Origin: a virus
Length of the DNA stretch: 64,000 nt
Virus record (IMG/VR): IMGVR_UViG_3300024299_000010
Location: 1-64,000 of that record
Reading direction: 5' to 3' (one strand)
Shown: positions 29,727-34,515 of the stretch, one piece after another
How the letters are laid out: the number at the start of each line of letters is the position of its first letter
Position numbering within the stretch: the stretch's first letter is position 1
Translations under genes and position numbers: made by a program
Notes under the pieces: generated by a model
Database searches by the model: none
Told to the model about the DNA's origin: nothing
The model's input: the letters and a program-made list of their open reading frames with translations, nothing else

Positions 29727-30653
29727 ATGAAATTCAAGAATCCTATAGCAGATTTATCTGCTCAGATTAATAAACATAAAGGTATAGCAAGAGCAAACTA
29801 TTTTGCTATAACCTTTTCAGGACCTGCTTCGGTTCAACCCGATACTGTATCAGTAAATGCTTTATGTGAAAGTGTAACACTTCCTGGAAGAAGTATATCA
29901 ACTAATGAGTTTGCTCCTGTTGGTGGTCAAATTAAACGACCTTATACATTTATCAATGATGATGTAACACTTACATTCTATGTCACAAATGATTTTTATA
30001 TATACCGTATCTTTGAAAAATGGATGAAACATGTTGTAAATGATGTATCCGGATTTGTTGGATATAGAGATCAATATGCTATGCCAATGACAATATCACA
30101 ACTTGATCTAAATAACAATGAAATCCATCAAGTGATGTTACATAAGGCATTTCCTATATCAATGGCTATAACACCATTAAGTGTTAGTGATGGTGCATTA
30201 TCTAAGTTAACCATTGTGATGACCTTTGATAATTTTACAACTAAGGGAAGTAACTTTGAGCAGGTTTCATCTACAGCAGATTTTGGGGATGCATTATCAA
30301 TACCGAATCCTAACATCGCATCATTACCATATAGTCCATTTGGTGATATCCCAAACCAAGTTGAATTTGATCTAGACTCCGTTAAACAGGGTATTCAAAC
30401 ATCATTGGATGATTCGTTGAATTCTACTATTAATGCCATCAAAGAAAATATAACTTCAACTGTCACATCTATAACATCACCTATCTCAGAAGGAGTAAAA
30501 GATATATTGGCGGGTGGTAATACTGGTCTTGGTGGTATCACAACACCATCAACAGGAGTTGGGTTTCTTGACGATATTATTGGTGAAGTTAACACAGGAA
30601 TTACGTCTATAACTAATAGAGCATCAACGGGTTTATCAAACTTGATTGGATAA
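29727..30653 (+). CDS. 54: Baseplate tail-tube initiator gp54-like
   Basis: 308 residues (T4 gp54: 320). The region RANYFAITFSGPA, VSVNALCESVTLPGRSI, RPYTFINDDVTLTFYVTNDF and IFEKWMKHV matches the tube-like domain of tail-tube initiators and tube proteins. The C-terminal 90 residues are serine-, threonine- and glycine-rich and low in complexity. gp54 binds the gp27 hub and nucleates tube assembly. It starts 2 nt after the preceding gene. Confidence 0.82.
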   Translation: MKFKNPIADLSAQINKHKGIARANYFAITFSGPASVQPDTVSVNALCESVTLPGRSISTNEFAPVGGQIKRPYTFINDDVTLTFYVTNDFYIYRIFEKWMKHVVNDVSGFVGYRDQYAMPMTISQLDLNNNEIHQVMLHKAFPISMAITPLSVSDGALSKLTIVMTFDNFTTKGSNFEQVSSTADFGDALSIPNPNIASLPYSPFGDIPNQVEFDLDSVKQGIQTSLDDSLNSTINAIKENITSTVTSITSPISEGVKDILAGGNTGLGGITTPSTGVGFLDDIIGEVNTGITSITNRASTGLSNLIG

Positions 30654-30688
30654 AGAATACAATATTATTATTATTACAGGAGAATATA

Positions 30689-31393
30689 ATGGCATTACCT
30701 AGAATTAATACACCAAAATATACATTGGTTATACCTAGTACACAAGAAGAAATTGAATACAGACCTTACCTAGTCAAAGAAGAAAAGATTCTTATGATGG
30801 GCATTGAAACTAACGATCAAAAGCAAATGATAACAGCATTACGTGATGTCATTTCTGGTTGCACTGACGGCAAAGTAAATGTTGATAAACTTCCTATGTT
30901 TGATATGGAATATATCTTCTTAAAGATTCGTGCTAAATCAGTTGGCGAAATTGCTAAGATTGGTGTCAAATGTACTTCATGCGAAACCAAGAATGAAATA
31001 GAAATCAATCTAGACAAAGTTAAAGTGTCGGGTGAAATGAAAGGATCTGAGAAGATTCAATTAACAGATGAAATTGGAATTGTATTAAAATATCCTACCG
31101 TGAAGGGTATCAAGCAACAATTATCATCTAAAAATGATGACAGAGATAATGCAATGGGAGCAGTAGTATCTTCTATTGAATCTATTTACGATAAAGAAAG
31201 TGTATATCTTGCTCAAGATGAAACTCCAGCAAATCTACTAGCATTTCTAGAATCATTAACTTCAACACAATTTGTGAAGATATCAGAGTATTTTGATGAT
31301 ATGCCAAAACTAAAACATGACATTGACTTCAAATGTGTATCGTGTGGTGAAGATAACTCTGTAGTGTTGGAAGGTCTACAAAGTTTTTTTTAG
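30689..31393 (+). CDS. 26: gp26-like baseplate hub/tail assembly protein with zinc ribbon; 5' part of a frameshift pair
   Basis: 234 residues (T4 gp26: 208). It matches the gp26/gp51-type T4 baseplate protein family: PKYTLVIPSTQEEIEYRPYL, KEEKILMMGIE, YIFLKIRAKSVGE. Two CxxC pairs (KCTSCE and KCVSCG) form a probable zinc ribbon. It has a strong AGGAG before the ATG. The last codons before TAG are AGT TTT TTT, a T-heptamer slippery site. A -1 shift would read through into the small ORF at 31399-31575, giving 295 residues. Lying directly before the tape measure gene, it resembles the G/GT chaperone arrangement of other tailed phages. Confidence 0.85.
   Translation: MALPRINTPKYTLVIPSTQEEIEYRPYLVKEEKILMMGIETNDQKQMITALRDVISGCTDGKVNVDKLPMFDMEYIFLKIRAKSVGEIAKIGVKCTSCETKNEIEINLDKVKVSGEMKGSEKIQLTDEIGIVLKYPTVKGIKQQLSSKNDDRDNAMGAVVSSIESIYDKESVYLAQDETPANLLAFLESLTSTQFVKISEYFDDMPKLKHDIDFKCVSCGEDNSVVLEGLQSFF
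31384..31390 (+). other. Candidate -1 programmed frameshift site
   Basis: Seven T in the pattern T TTT TTT, in zero frame of the gp26-like gene and immediately followed by its TAG stop at 31391-31393. After a -1 slip the frame reads TTA GTA TGC and enters the downstream ORF without a stop. The pattern fits the X XXY YYZ heptamer used in phage tail assembly genes. Confidence 0.7.
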
Positions 31394-31398
31394 TATGC

Positions 31399-31575
31399 AT
31401 GTCACATGATTCATTAGAGAATTATTATAAGACTAATTTTTCTCTAATGCAACATCATAAATATTCTTTATCTGAATTGGATTCAATGATCCCTTGGGAA
31501 AGGGAGATATATCTTATGTTATTAGTACAATATATTAAAGAAGAAAACGACCGAATTAAATCTCAAAACAGGTAA
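31399..31575 (+). CDS. Short ORF, probable frameshift extension of the gp26-like protein
   Basis: 58 residues if read alone from the ATG (begins MSHDSLENYY), in the -1 frame relative to the gene before. It contains LSELDSMIPWEREIY and LLVQYIKEEN, a helical pattern like the T-part of tail assembly chaperones (SLxELxxMxPxEREIY). No ribosome binding site precedes its ATG: the upstream bases are a T-run. Expression by -1 frameshift is the simplest reading. It ends 6 nt before the tape measure gene. Confidence 0.75.
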   Translation: MSHDSLENYYKTNFSLMQHHKYSLSELDSMIPWEREIYLMLLVQYIKEENDRIKSQNR

Positions 31576-31581
31576 AAAATA

Positions 31582-34515
31582 ATGGCAAAGGATAATGATA
31601 TAACAGATGCAATAGAACAACAAACTGAAGCGTTAAAAACTTCTTTGAATGTTGATGCTGTTACATCTGAACTTAAAAAACTAAATGATGTTTGGAAAGA
31701 GGGTGATTCTGAAGTAACAGAAGAAATTCAAGCATCTTCAGTTATGAATGTTAATGCTATGGGTGAATTTGCTAGAAGGAATGAGGCAGCACTTAAAAAG
31801 GCACAGAAGGAAGCAGAAAAAAACAGTCCAATAAATAAATTAACAGAATCTCTAAAGGCACAAAATAAAATATTAGACACCAATTTGGTTATGGATGGTT
31901 TAAGTAAACAACTTGAAGATCTAAATGCTAATACTACAGAGAATTCTAGACAACTTACCAGTCAATTTGCTGATGTTAGTTCAATATTAGAGAATCCTAG
32001 TTCATCTGATGAAGAAAAACAATCTGCTAGTGAAACACTTGCAGCACTTGGTAAATTAGCACAAGGTGAAAAACAACGTAGAGAATCTGAAAAGAAATTA
32101 AAATCTTTTGAAAATAAATCTTTAGAGAACTTAACTAAAACCCTAGAAGCACAAAATGAGGGATTACAGGTTTCGTTGTCTAAGGGAGATTTGGGTGCTA
32201 AACTTAAAAAACTAAACAAAGATTCAAATGAAAATTCACTTGAACTTGCCAGTCAATTTGCTGATGTTAGTTCAATATTAGAGAATCCTAGTTCATCTGA
32301 TGAAGAAAAGAAATCTGCGAGTGAAACACTAGAAGCACTTGGTAAATTAGCACAAGGTGAAGAACAACGTAGAGAATCTGAAAAGAAATTAAAATCACAA
32401 GCATCAATATGGAATAAGATTAAAGAAAATACCAAAGGAATGTCTGATGGTTTAAAATCACTTGGTGAAAGTTTAAAGTCTAAAGGTGGACTGCTTGCAG
32501 GTCTTGCTGGGATAGCACTTTTATTATTTAGCCCAGAAACATTCATTAAAATTATAAATGGTGCTATTGATTTTGTCGTTGATATGTTTAAAGCAATTAA
32601 TAAAATCGTTGAAGGCGATATTGGCGGTGCTTTAGAGTTGATTTGGAAACATGCAGGAATACTTTCTGGTATAATATTAGGAATTGGTTTGAAGTTTGGT
32701 GGTAAAATTATATCAGGATTTAAAGCGTTAAAGGTGGCTGTTACAGCAGTAAGAACTTTTATGCAGATGAAGTGGTTACCTGAAAGGATAGCAGACTTTA
32801 AAGGTTTCTTGAAAGGTCTTACGAAGTTTGCTGGTAAGGGGTGGAACCTTCTTAAAAATGCAATGTCTGCTGCTAAAGCTTTTATGATGACCAGTTTTAT
32901 TCCTGGTATGATGGGAATGTTCTCTTCTATAGGTGCTGCTCTTGCTCCTATATTAGCGGCTATTGCTCCAATGTTAGTACCAGCATTATTGATAGTAGGA
33001 GCAGCACTTGCTATTGGATTAGCAATAAAATCATTATATAATGCATTCAATGATGCCTTTAAGACCTTTGAAGAAACTGGTTCTATTATGGAAACATTCA
33101 AAGCATTTATATCAGGGCTTGGTGCTACAATGATAGGGTACCCAATGGATCTATTAAAAGATGCAATATCTTGGGTAGCAAGTGCTTTCGGTTTTGATGA
33201 TGTTTCTAAATCTCTTGATTCGTTTAGTTTTCAGGATATCATTAAAAATGGTATTGGCAACGCATTTGATTGGTTTGGTAATATATTTGCATCAATAGGA
33301 ACCTCTATATCGAACTTTTTTAGTCCTATAATAGAATCATTTTCAAATATATTTCAAAATATAGGAACACTGATAAGTGAACTTCCCGCTAAAATTTATG
33401 GGTTTATACCAGATTTAATTAAAGACTTGGTTTCTTGGGTTGCTAGTGCATTAGGTTTTGAGAAATTTTCTGAATTATTAGATTCGTTTAGTTTCACTGA
33501 TATATTCCAGAATGTTGTAGATACGATATTGGATACCATTAGTGGATTAATGGATAGTGTTGTATCATTTATCACATCGGTTTTTGATTTTGATTTTATT
33601 GGAGCATTAACAAAAGCCATACCAGGTTTTGGTAAACTTGCTAGTTTTCTAGGTTTCGGATCTACAGAAACTAAAGTAACAGAAAAAAAGAAAGAAGAAA
33701 AGAAAACTGAACCATTGTCAAAGGAGGAAAAACTATCTAATGACAGAGCTAATGGATTCAGAGGAGAAGGAAAGAGAAATTCTAACGATAGAAGGAAAGA
33801 GAGTAAACGTGTAAGAGACGATCAAGCAAAACAACTTAAAGATGCTGGTGTAAAAGACGGAAAATTCCTTGCTGGTCAACTGGTAATCGAAGGAAAGGAA
33901 TTAACTAAAAATCAAAAGATAGCAAAGGCTAGAAACGATGCACGTGATAAAGCAGAAGCAGAAAAGGTTGCATTATTAACACCAGAAGAAAAGGAATCCT
34001 ACGAATTTACTAAAGAAAATCCTTTTGATGGTGGGTTTACCATGCCTAAAGATATGGATTCTCGTGTTAAAGCTAAAAATGCTGCTGAGTTGGCTAAAAC
34101 TGAAAAATGGGGAAACAAACATTATAGGAAAGAAAACGCTAAAAAGGAACCGCTTGATTCTACAGTAACAGATAAATCAACCGAAAAATCTGCATCTTTA
34201 GTTAAAGAATCCCCTGAAAAGGAAAGTGGTGGTATCTTATCAAGTATCGGTAATTTCTTTAGTAGTAGTAGTAGTGATGAACCTGTGGTTGAAAAGTTAG
34301 AAACACCTGACTCTGGAGTATATACAAGAACCAATGAAAATATCAATGAAAAAGCAGAAGCAGATAAAGAAAGTAACAATATCGTTGTTGCTCCAGGTGG
34401 TTGGACTTCAAATAGTAATGCTACTACTAATGTGACAAATTCATCCACCGTTGTTTCTAGTGGAATTACTCCAGATGATATGGTGAAATTGTCGTTTATG
34501 AACACTGGATATTAG
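31582..34515 (+). CDS. 29: Tail length tape measure protein
   Basis: 977 residues, against 590 in T4 gp29. Residues 1-275 are charged coiled coil with an almost perfect duplication of about 49 residues (near 126-175 and 223-271). Hydrophobic segments near 303-345 (LLAGLAGIALLLF) and 435-490 (AALAPILAAIAPMLVPAL) could insert in the host membrane at ejection. A third repeated pair (SWVASAFGFDD/SWVASALGFEK) follows. The C-terminal 270 residues are lysine/glutamate-rich. Long length, position after the frameshift pair and membrane segments identify a tape measure protein; its length sets the tail length. Confidence 0.82.
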   Translation: MAKDNDITDAIEQQTEALKTSLNVDAVTSELKKLNDVWKEGDSEVTEEIQASSVMNVNAMGEFARRNEAALKKAQKEAEKNSPINKLTESLKAQNKILDTNLVMDGLSKQLEDLNANTTENSRQLTSQFADVSSILENPSSSDEEKQSASETLAALGKLAQGEKQRRESEKKLKSFENKSLENLTKTLEAQNEGLQVSLSKGDLGAKLKKLNKDSNENSLELASQFADVSSILENPSSSDEEKKSASETLEALGKLAQGEEQRRESEKKLKSQASIWNKIKENTKGMSDGLKSLGESLKSKGGLLAGLAGIALLLFSPETFIKIINGAIDFVVDMFKAINKIVEGDIGGALELIWKHAGILSGIILGIGLKFGGKIISGFKALKVAVTAVRTFMQMKWLPERIADFKGFLKGLTKFAGKGWNLLKNAMSAAKAFMMTSFIPGMMGMFSSIGAALAPILAAIAPMLVPALLIVGAALAIGLAIKSLYNAFNDAFKTFEETGSIMETFKAFISGLGATMIGYPMDLLKDAISWVASAFGFDDVSKSLDSFSFQDIIKNGIGNAFDWFGNIFASIGTSISNFFSPIIESFSNIFQNIGTLISELPAKIYGFIPDLIKDLVSWVASALGFEKFSELLDSFSFTDIFQNVVDTILDTISGLMDSVVSFITSVFDFDFIGALTKAIPGFGKLASFLGFGSTETKVTEKKKEEKKTEPLSKEEKLSNDRANGFRGEGKRNSNDRRKESKRVRDDQAKQLKDAGVKDGKFLAGQLVIEGKELTKNQKIAKARNDARDKAEAEKVALLTPEEKESYEFTKENPFDGGFTMPKDMDSRVKAKNAAELAKTEKWGNKHYRKENAKKEPLDSTVTDKSTEKSASLVKESPEKESGGILSSIGNFFSSSSSDEPVVEKLETPDSGVYTRTNENINEKAEADKESNNIVVAPGGWTSNSNATTNVTNSSTVVSSGITPDDMVKLSFMNTGY
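31958..32105 (+). repeat. Direct repeat inside the tape measure gene, copy 1
   Basis: About 148 bp nearly identical to 32249-32396. It encodes the segment from QFADVSSILENP to RRESEKKLK. The 291-bp offset is an exact multiple of three (97 codons), so frame is kept. Confidence 0.9.
32249..32396 (+). repeat. Direct repeat inside the tape measure gene, copy 2
   Basis: Second copy of the 148-bp unit at 31958-32105, with only a few base changes, which indicates a recent duplication or ongoing gene conversion. Confidence 0.9.

Follow-up and report, generated by a model that had tools for sequence, protein, structure and literature searches.

Does the gp26-like gene of this uncultured T4-like phage encode a single protein, or do two products that differ at their C-termini arise from it? 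The window analysed here, 64,000 nt in length, lies within a 71-kb IMG/VR virus record. In it, the gp26-like open reading frame (ORF; 30689−31393, + strand) ends with CAA AGT TTT TTT TAG, the segment AGT TTT TTT TAG occupying 31382−31393 and containing a run of eight T's (31384−31391), of which the first seven form the heptamer T_TTT_TTT. A slip of one base backwards at this site leads from 31390 into 61 open codons, which begin LVCMSHDSLENYYK and run to a stop at 31573−31575, so that the long product would have 295 residues compared with 234 for the short one. This arrangement had been proposed in a sequence-only reading of the same DNA, and its coordinates, phase and both lengths proved right. 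We favour programmed −1 ribosomal frameshifting, by which a short and a long tail assembly chaperone (TAC-N and TAC-NC) would be produced, with a probability of about 0.9, on the basis of the heptamer, the −1 phase, their conservation together, the lack of start codons in the downstream ORF and a homologue in which the N and C parts are joined.

Two overlapping frames are found between a tube-family gene and the tape measure gene, a layout as in lambda G/GT. The upstream gene may encode a tube initiator instead of the main tube protein, and the earlier claim that the pair immediately precedes the tape measure gene was borne out by the profile matches of the neighbouring gene to phrog_58 and phrog_1535. 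Across the larger ORFs of the window (~17,500 codons), T_TTT_TTN occurs in frame five times, and only the gp26-like one is located directly at the stop codon of its gene.

Table. Features of the gp26-like locus and its neighbours in the window.
Feature	Position	Strand	Basis or remark
Tail tube / tube-initiator family gene, directly upstream	29727..30653	+	phrog_45, E=3.3e-33; PF23849, E=3.1e-7
Shine-Dalgarno AGGAG of the gp26-like gene	30678..30682	+	direct reading, 6 nt 5′ of ATG 30689
Putative short form TAC-N (gp26 homologue), 234 aa	30689..31393, including TAG 31391−31393	+	PF12322, phrog_150
Shine-Dalgarno-like GGAAGG, candidate 5′ stimulator	31369..31374	+	ends 9 nt 5′ of the heptamer
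Slippery heptamer T_TTT_TTT (putative)	31384..31390	+	T_TTT_TTN in 111/111 and 63/63 relatives
Putative TAC-C, gp51 C-terminal homologue	31390..31575 (61 codons, 31390−31572, and stop)	+	−1 frame; TAC-NC would be 295 aa
10-bp hairpin (CATTAGAGAA 31412−31421 / TTCTCTAATG 31440−31449), candidate 3′ stimulator	31412..31449	+	21 nt after the heptamer
Tape measure protein gene, 977 aa	31582..34515	+	phrog_58, phrog_1535, phrog_4197, E ~2e-8 to 3.5e-8

Profile searches placed the N part in the gp26 family, with a match to PF12322 (T4_baseplate) over residues 9−234 at 214.8 bits against a cut-off of 24.5 (E=1.5e-63) and a match over the full length to phrog_150 (231 bits, E=3.7e-68). Its fold was predicted with good confidence (pLDDT 88) and the named BFVD fold matches were mostly gp26-family proteins; among the solved structures of the PDB, neither sequence nor fold comparison gave a credible match. 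Cysteines 95, 98, 216 and 219 are invariant in 18 relatives, which suggests a zinc-binding (metal) site in a tail chaperone. Cysteine pairs are also found in T4 gp26. The C part, read in the −1 frame, belongs to the gp51 family, matching phrog_634 (“baseplate hub assembly catalyst”, gp51) over residues 2−60 of 61 with 102 bits (E=4.9e-29); it also matches the C-terminal positions 236−278 of phrog_150 (E=2.2e-6), a family that includes joined proteins with both N and C parts. The window thus carries the two features of a frameshifted T4-like TAC, namely a slippery heptamer at the TAC-N end and a C domain in the −1 frame.

Comparison with T4 showed how the two parts are related. In T4, gp26 (208 aa) and gp51 (249 aa) both belong to PF12322 and are homologues of the putative TAC-N and TAC-NC of the window (PF12322, phrog_150), and along phrog_150 (length 282) T4 gp51 reaches position 280 while T4 gp26 reaches only position 235. 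The C part of the window aligns with the gp51 C-terminus of T4, Aeromonas phage 25 and Krischvirus G2248; by these comparisons, T4 gp51 combines both parts, N and C, in a single gene. In contrast to the window, T4 encodes gp26 and gp51 in full genes that are separate and lie on opposite strands, with neither the T run nor a C domain in the −1 frame. Similarly, in T4, LH2, G2248 and Aeromonas phage 25, where the joined gene 51 is present, the T run is gone from gp26, which in T4 reads GAG TTC TTT GAG at the matching place, and no C domain was found in the −1 frame of gp26. Among the phages compared, the T run follows the frameshift layout and not the protein family. The earlier proposal that gp26-family proteins act as tail assembly chaperones in two forms gains support from the position of the gene and from the joining seen in T4 gp51, and the frameshift would account for the two forms. 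T4 gp51 is required yet absent from the particle (PMC3004832). Cyanophage gp51 has been described without its first ~200 residues (Sullivan et al., 2010; PMC3037559), which would be because gp26 supplies them through the frameshift.

In a first set of relatives, TTTTTT at the gp26 end and C homology in the −1 phase were found together at 158/158 loci. Because this set had partly been selected by the C part, the analysis was redone on loci picked by gp26 similarity alone. In 111/111 distinct loci, T_TTT_TTN lay no more than 12 codons from the gp26 stop (seventh base C in 67, T in 44), C homology was in the −1 frame in all 111, and the −1 frame was open for 60−71 codons, the +1 frame for a median of 6. 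The alignment of homologues that the sequence-only reading had proposed as a check therefore came out in its favour, with slippery site and downstream ORF conserved together; the T run and the −1 phase, whose absence from homologues it had named as telling against the idea, are co-conserved.

The pattern within the site was then resolved among 63 diverged representatives (<80% nucleotide identity), which kept the six T's in 63/63 cases. The codon preceding TTT is AGT, GAT, AAT or TCT, with no synonym ending in C, and TTT serves as the first Phe codon throughout, though approximately a quarter of the Phe codons in these genes are TTC, while the second slippery codon is free (TTC, TTT, TTA or TTG). 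Based on gene-wide codon use, T at both synonymous positions would be expected in ~56% of independent cases (~0.76 × 0.74) compared with 63/63 observed, the loci sharing descent and hence not being fully independent. Among 119 distinct loci, the seventh base was C, T, A and G in 71, 39, 8 and 1, respectively, and was free even where Phe is changed to Leu. In these alignments, the six invariant T's with a free seventh base constitute the X_XXY_YYZ rule for tandem slippage, with the free base as a built-in control. In 8/63 representatives, a −1-frame stop lies directly before the heptamer, and therefore the frame switch cannot occur farther upstream and must be at the heptamer; the 0-frame stop comes 0, 1, 2 or 8 codons after it.

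The length of the T run also bears on transcriptional slippage, by which RNA polymerase would add one U on the T8 and part of the mRNA would encode the fusion, with an identical protein as the result. The eight consecutive T's of the window suit such a process; nevertheless, we consider it unlikely because 42/63 diverged representatives carry only six T's, and a further 13/63 carry seven, which is short for polymerase slippage, and because tandem tRNA slippage better explains why six in-register T's are invariant while the seventh base is free. Homopolymers are likewise prone to indel errors, so that a sequencing or assembly indel might have split one fused gene, or two unrelated genes might merely adjoin; but the identical frame break recurs in distinct contigs from many samples and in independently sequenced isolates, with T runs of 6, 7 and 8, and the probability left to either is negligible, both being refuted by this conservation across independent sequences.

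The isolates that keep T_TTT_TTN and the −1 C domain comprise P-SSM2, S-SRM01, S-CAM1, MA01, HTVC008M, Mosig, Melnitz, KVP40, Cr30, RHph_I34, Yut2, ACP17, AS-zj and AsFcp_1, and T4-like isolates of other groups that have the heptamer and the −1 ORF include Rhizobium, Stenotrophomonas, Acidovorax and Aeromonas phages. The gp26 gene was also found, at 41−45% identity, on four contigs recorded as bacterial genomes (Rhodobacteraceae and Flavobacteria bins), which are probably phage contigs binned with their hosts.

Programmed frameshifting also has to be weighed against a downstream ORF that is a gene of its own. The 58-codon ORF would then be translated from ATG 31399 by reinitiation after TAG 31391, in line with public cyanophage “gp51” annotations. 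In the window, this ATG is only 5 nt beyond the stop codon, and public records annotate small, separate gp51 genes, some of which overlap the gp26 stop (KVP40 and Cr30). The absence of a ribosome site, asserted by the sequence-only reading, was confirmed by reading the sequence: no Shine-Dalgarno-like element was found at a usable distance from ATG 31399, whereas the gp26-like gene has AGGAG. A conserved start of the ORF's own, which that reading had said would contradict it, was not found either, since none of ATG, GTG and TTG occurs among the opening 8 codons of the −1 ORF in 102/119 distinct loci and the Met of the window is Leu in most relatives. This makes a separately initiated downstream gene very unlikely. 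Moreover, the conserved coding starts upstream of ATG 31399, T4 gp51 is a joined N+C protein, and a separate gene would leave the invariance of the T run without a reason.

A departure from the canonical site was observed in Ackermannviridae-type phages and related Vibrio phages (Vibrio phages K446, SUMAE and 1.255, Klebsiella phage KpS110 and Salmonella phage PMBT18). In these, the −1 frame still holds the C domain, which bears a PWH motif, but T_TTT_TTN is not present at their gp26 ends, which read ATT TTC ATT TAA or CTT TTY NNN TAA. Such ends would need a different kind of slip, and this layout without the canonical heptamer is a point against the frameshifted-TAC reading.

Candidate stimulators were evaluated on both sides of the heptamer. 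Downstream, the region 31396−31460 of the window folds with z=−3.78, and the 63 relatives showed excess folding 15−87 nt downstream of the heptamer relative to synonymous shuffles: −1-frame codons 5−29 had a mean z of −1.89 (SE 0.18) against synonymous versions, compared with −0.15 to −0.56 for control stretches, and dinucleotide shuffles agreed. RNAalifold found no consensus structure for the 63 sequences, average pairing profiles revealed no dominant shared helix, and no match to known RNA families was found in Rfam; the lack of one conserved downstream fold counts against the frameshifted-TAC reading. A fixed downstream pseudoknot or hairpin was rejected, the 10-bp hairpin of the window not being common to its closest relatives. 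Upstream, the GGAAGG site pairs with the anti-Shine-Dalgarno sequence at −6.7 kcal/mol compared with −4.4 kcal/mol for synonymous versions. In the 63 representatives, such elements mostly end 7−9 nt before the heptamer and the pairing is modestly stronger than the synonymous expectation (mean −6.05 vs −4.84 kcal/mol, Wilcoxon p ~9e-5), with a mean rank among simulations of only 0.46. We treat the downstream structure and the Shine-Dalgarno-like element as leads, not as findings. Tentatively, and less likely than not, gp26/gp51 frameshifting might be tuned by position-flexible stimulators, namely RNA structure 15−87 nt downstream that is under selection over and above the protein sequence but has no shared fold, and a Shine-Dalgarno-like element 7−9 nt upstream, and the Ackermannviridae-type branch might use a reduced NTTTTY with a single-tRNA slip.

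If programmed frameshifting operates here, the majority of ribosomes would terminate at TAG 31391 and yield the gp26-like TAC-N, whereas a minority would slip back one base at T_TTT_TTT, both tRNA-Phe re-pairing to UUU, and read on to 31575 to yield TAC-NC with its gp51-like C-terminal domain. If lambda gpG/gpGT is a guide, the tape measure protein of the neighbouring gene might be coated by many short and few long copies, and the C domain might recruit the tail tube subunit. The slippage itself, its rate, the binding to the tape measure protein and what each domain does are all inferred. The lambda slippery heptamer is G_GGA_AAG, unlike that of the window. Like the slip proposed for the window, that of lambda is in the −1 direction, falls near the end of the gene immediately preceding the tape measure gene and gives short and long products; these are made at a G:GT ratio of ~30:1, and the tape measure protein is bound through the G part and the tube protein through the T part (PMC5009743). 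The window differs in deriving from a contractile-tailed T4-like phage and in having an N part with a conserved Cys4 motif. Searches of Pfam, PHROGs and the PDB found no sequence or fold similarity to lambda-type G/T chaperones, a further point against the frameshifted-TAC reading; accordingly, on these matches, the likeness to G/GT is one of layout, with membership of the gp26 and gp51 families found and lambda-type G/T homology not. Also against it, U_UUU_UUU was reported to be less prone to shifting in E. coli than A_AAA_AAG (PMC5009743). The TAC of phage Adele in the Vandenendeviridae / Andersonviridae has a GTTTTT −1 site (PMC12846349), and resembles the window in layout, with a T-rich −1 site at the TAC-N end and the C part in the −1 frame, although it belongs to other phage families.

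The chaperone idea for gp26 put forward by the sequence-only reading was right but not new, as TAC frameshifting had been reported for T4-like phages by Vladimirov, Gautam & Davidson (Virology 2022, 566:9−15), as cited in PMC10885494 and PMC12846349. The former cites the 2022 study for T4-like phages in which a short gene is accompanied by a longer, fused one, and the latter for slippery poly-T sites within the TAC-N genes of T4-like phages. These independent publications agree with the reading favoured here. As far as those citations convey, the TAC-N and TAC-NC reported there concern the same gene pair and the same idea of a short and a long chaperone as in the window. Because the frameshift idea had already been published, this locus is a further example of a known system. 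To our knowledge, the uncultured phage of the window is not described in that study. Its abstract reportedly describes conservation of the frameshifting across several T4-like groups, with T4 itself using separate genes 26 and 51. Possible additions to what has been published are the excess downstream RNA structure, the weak Shine-Dalgarno-like element and the relatives without a canonical heptamer. The >100 environmental loci provide strong independent sequence support for the view of gp26 and gp51, the “baseplate hub” proteins of T4, as one chaperone in a short and a long form, respectively, and many T4-like genome annotations would need correcting accordingly.

Two further observations concern the neighbourhood of the locus. 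The tape measure gene contains, at 31885−32396, a 221-nt duplication with a spacing of 291 nt and 83% identity, which is possibly a recent change in tail length. Farther downstream, a NUMOD3-containing ORF (35784−36359) lies between a gp32-like gene (34572−35474, − strand) and a gp59-like gene (36354−36941, − strand), on the strand opposite to these flanking genes, and probably encodes a homing endonuclease.
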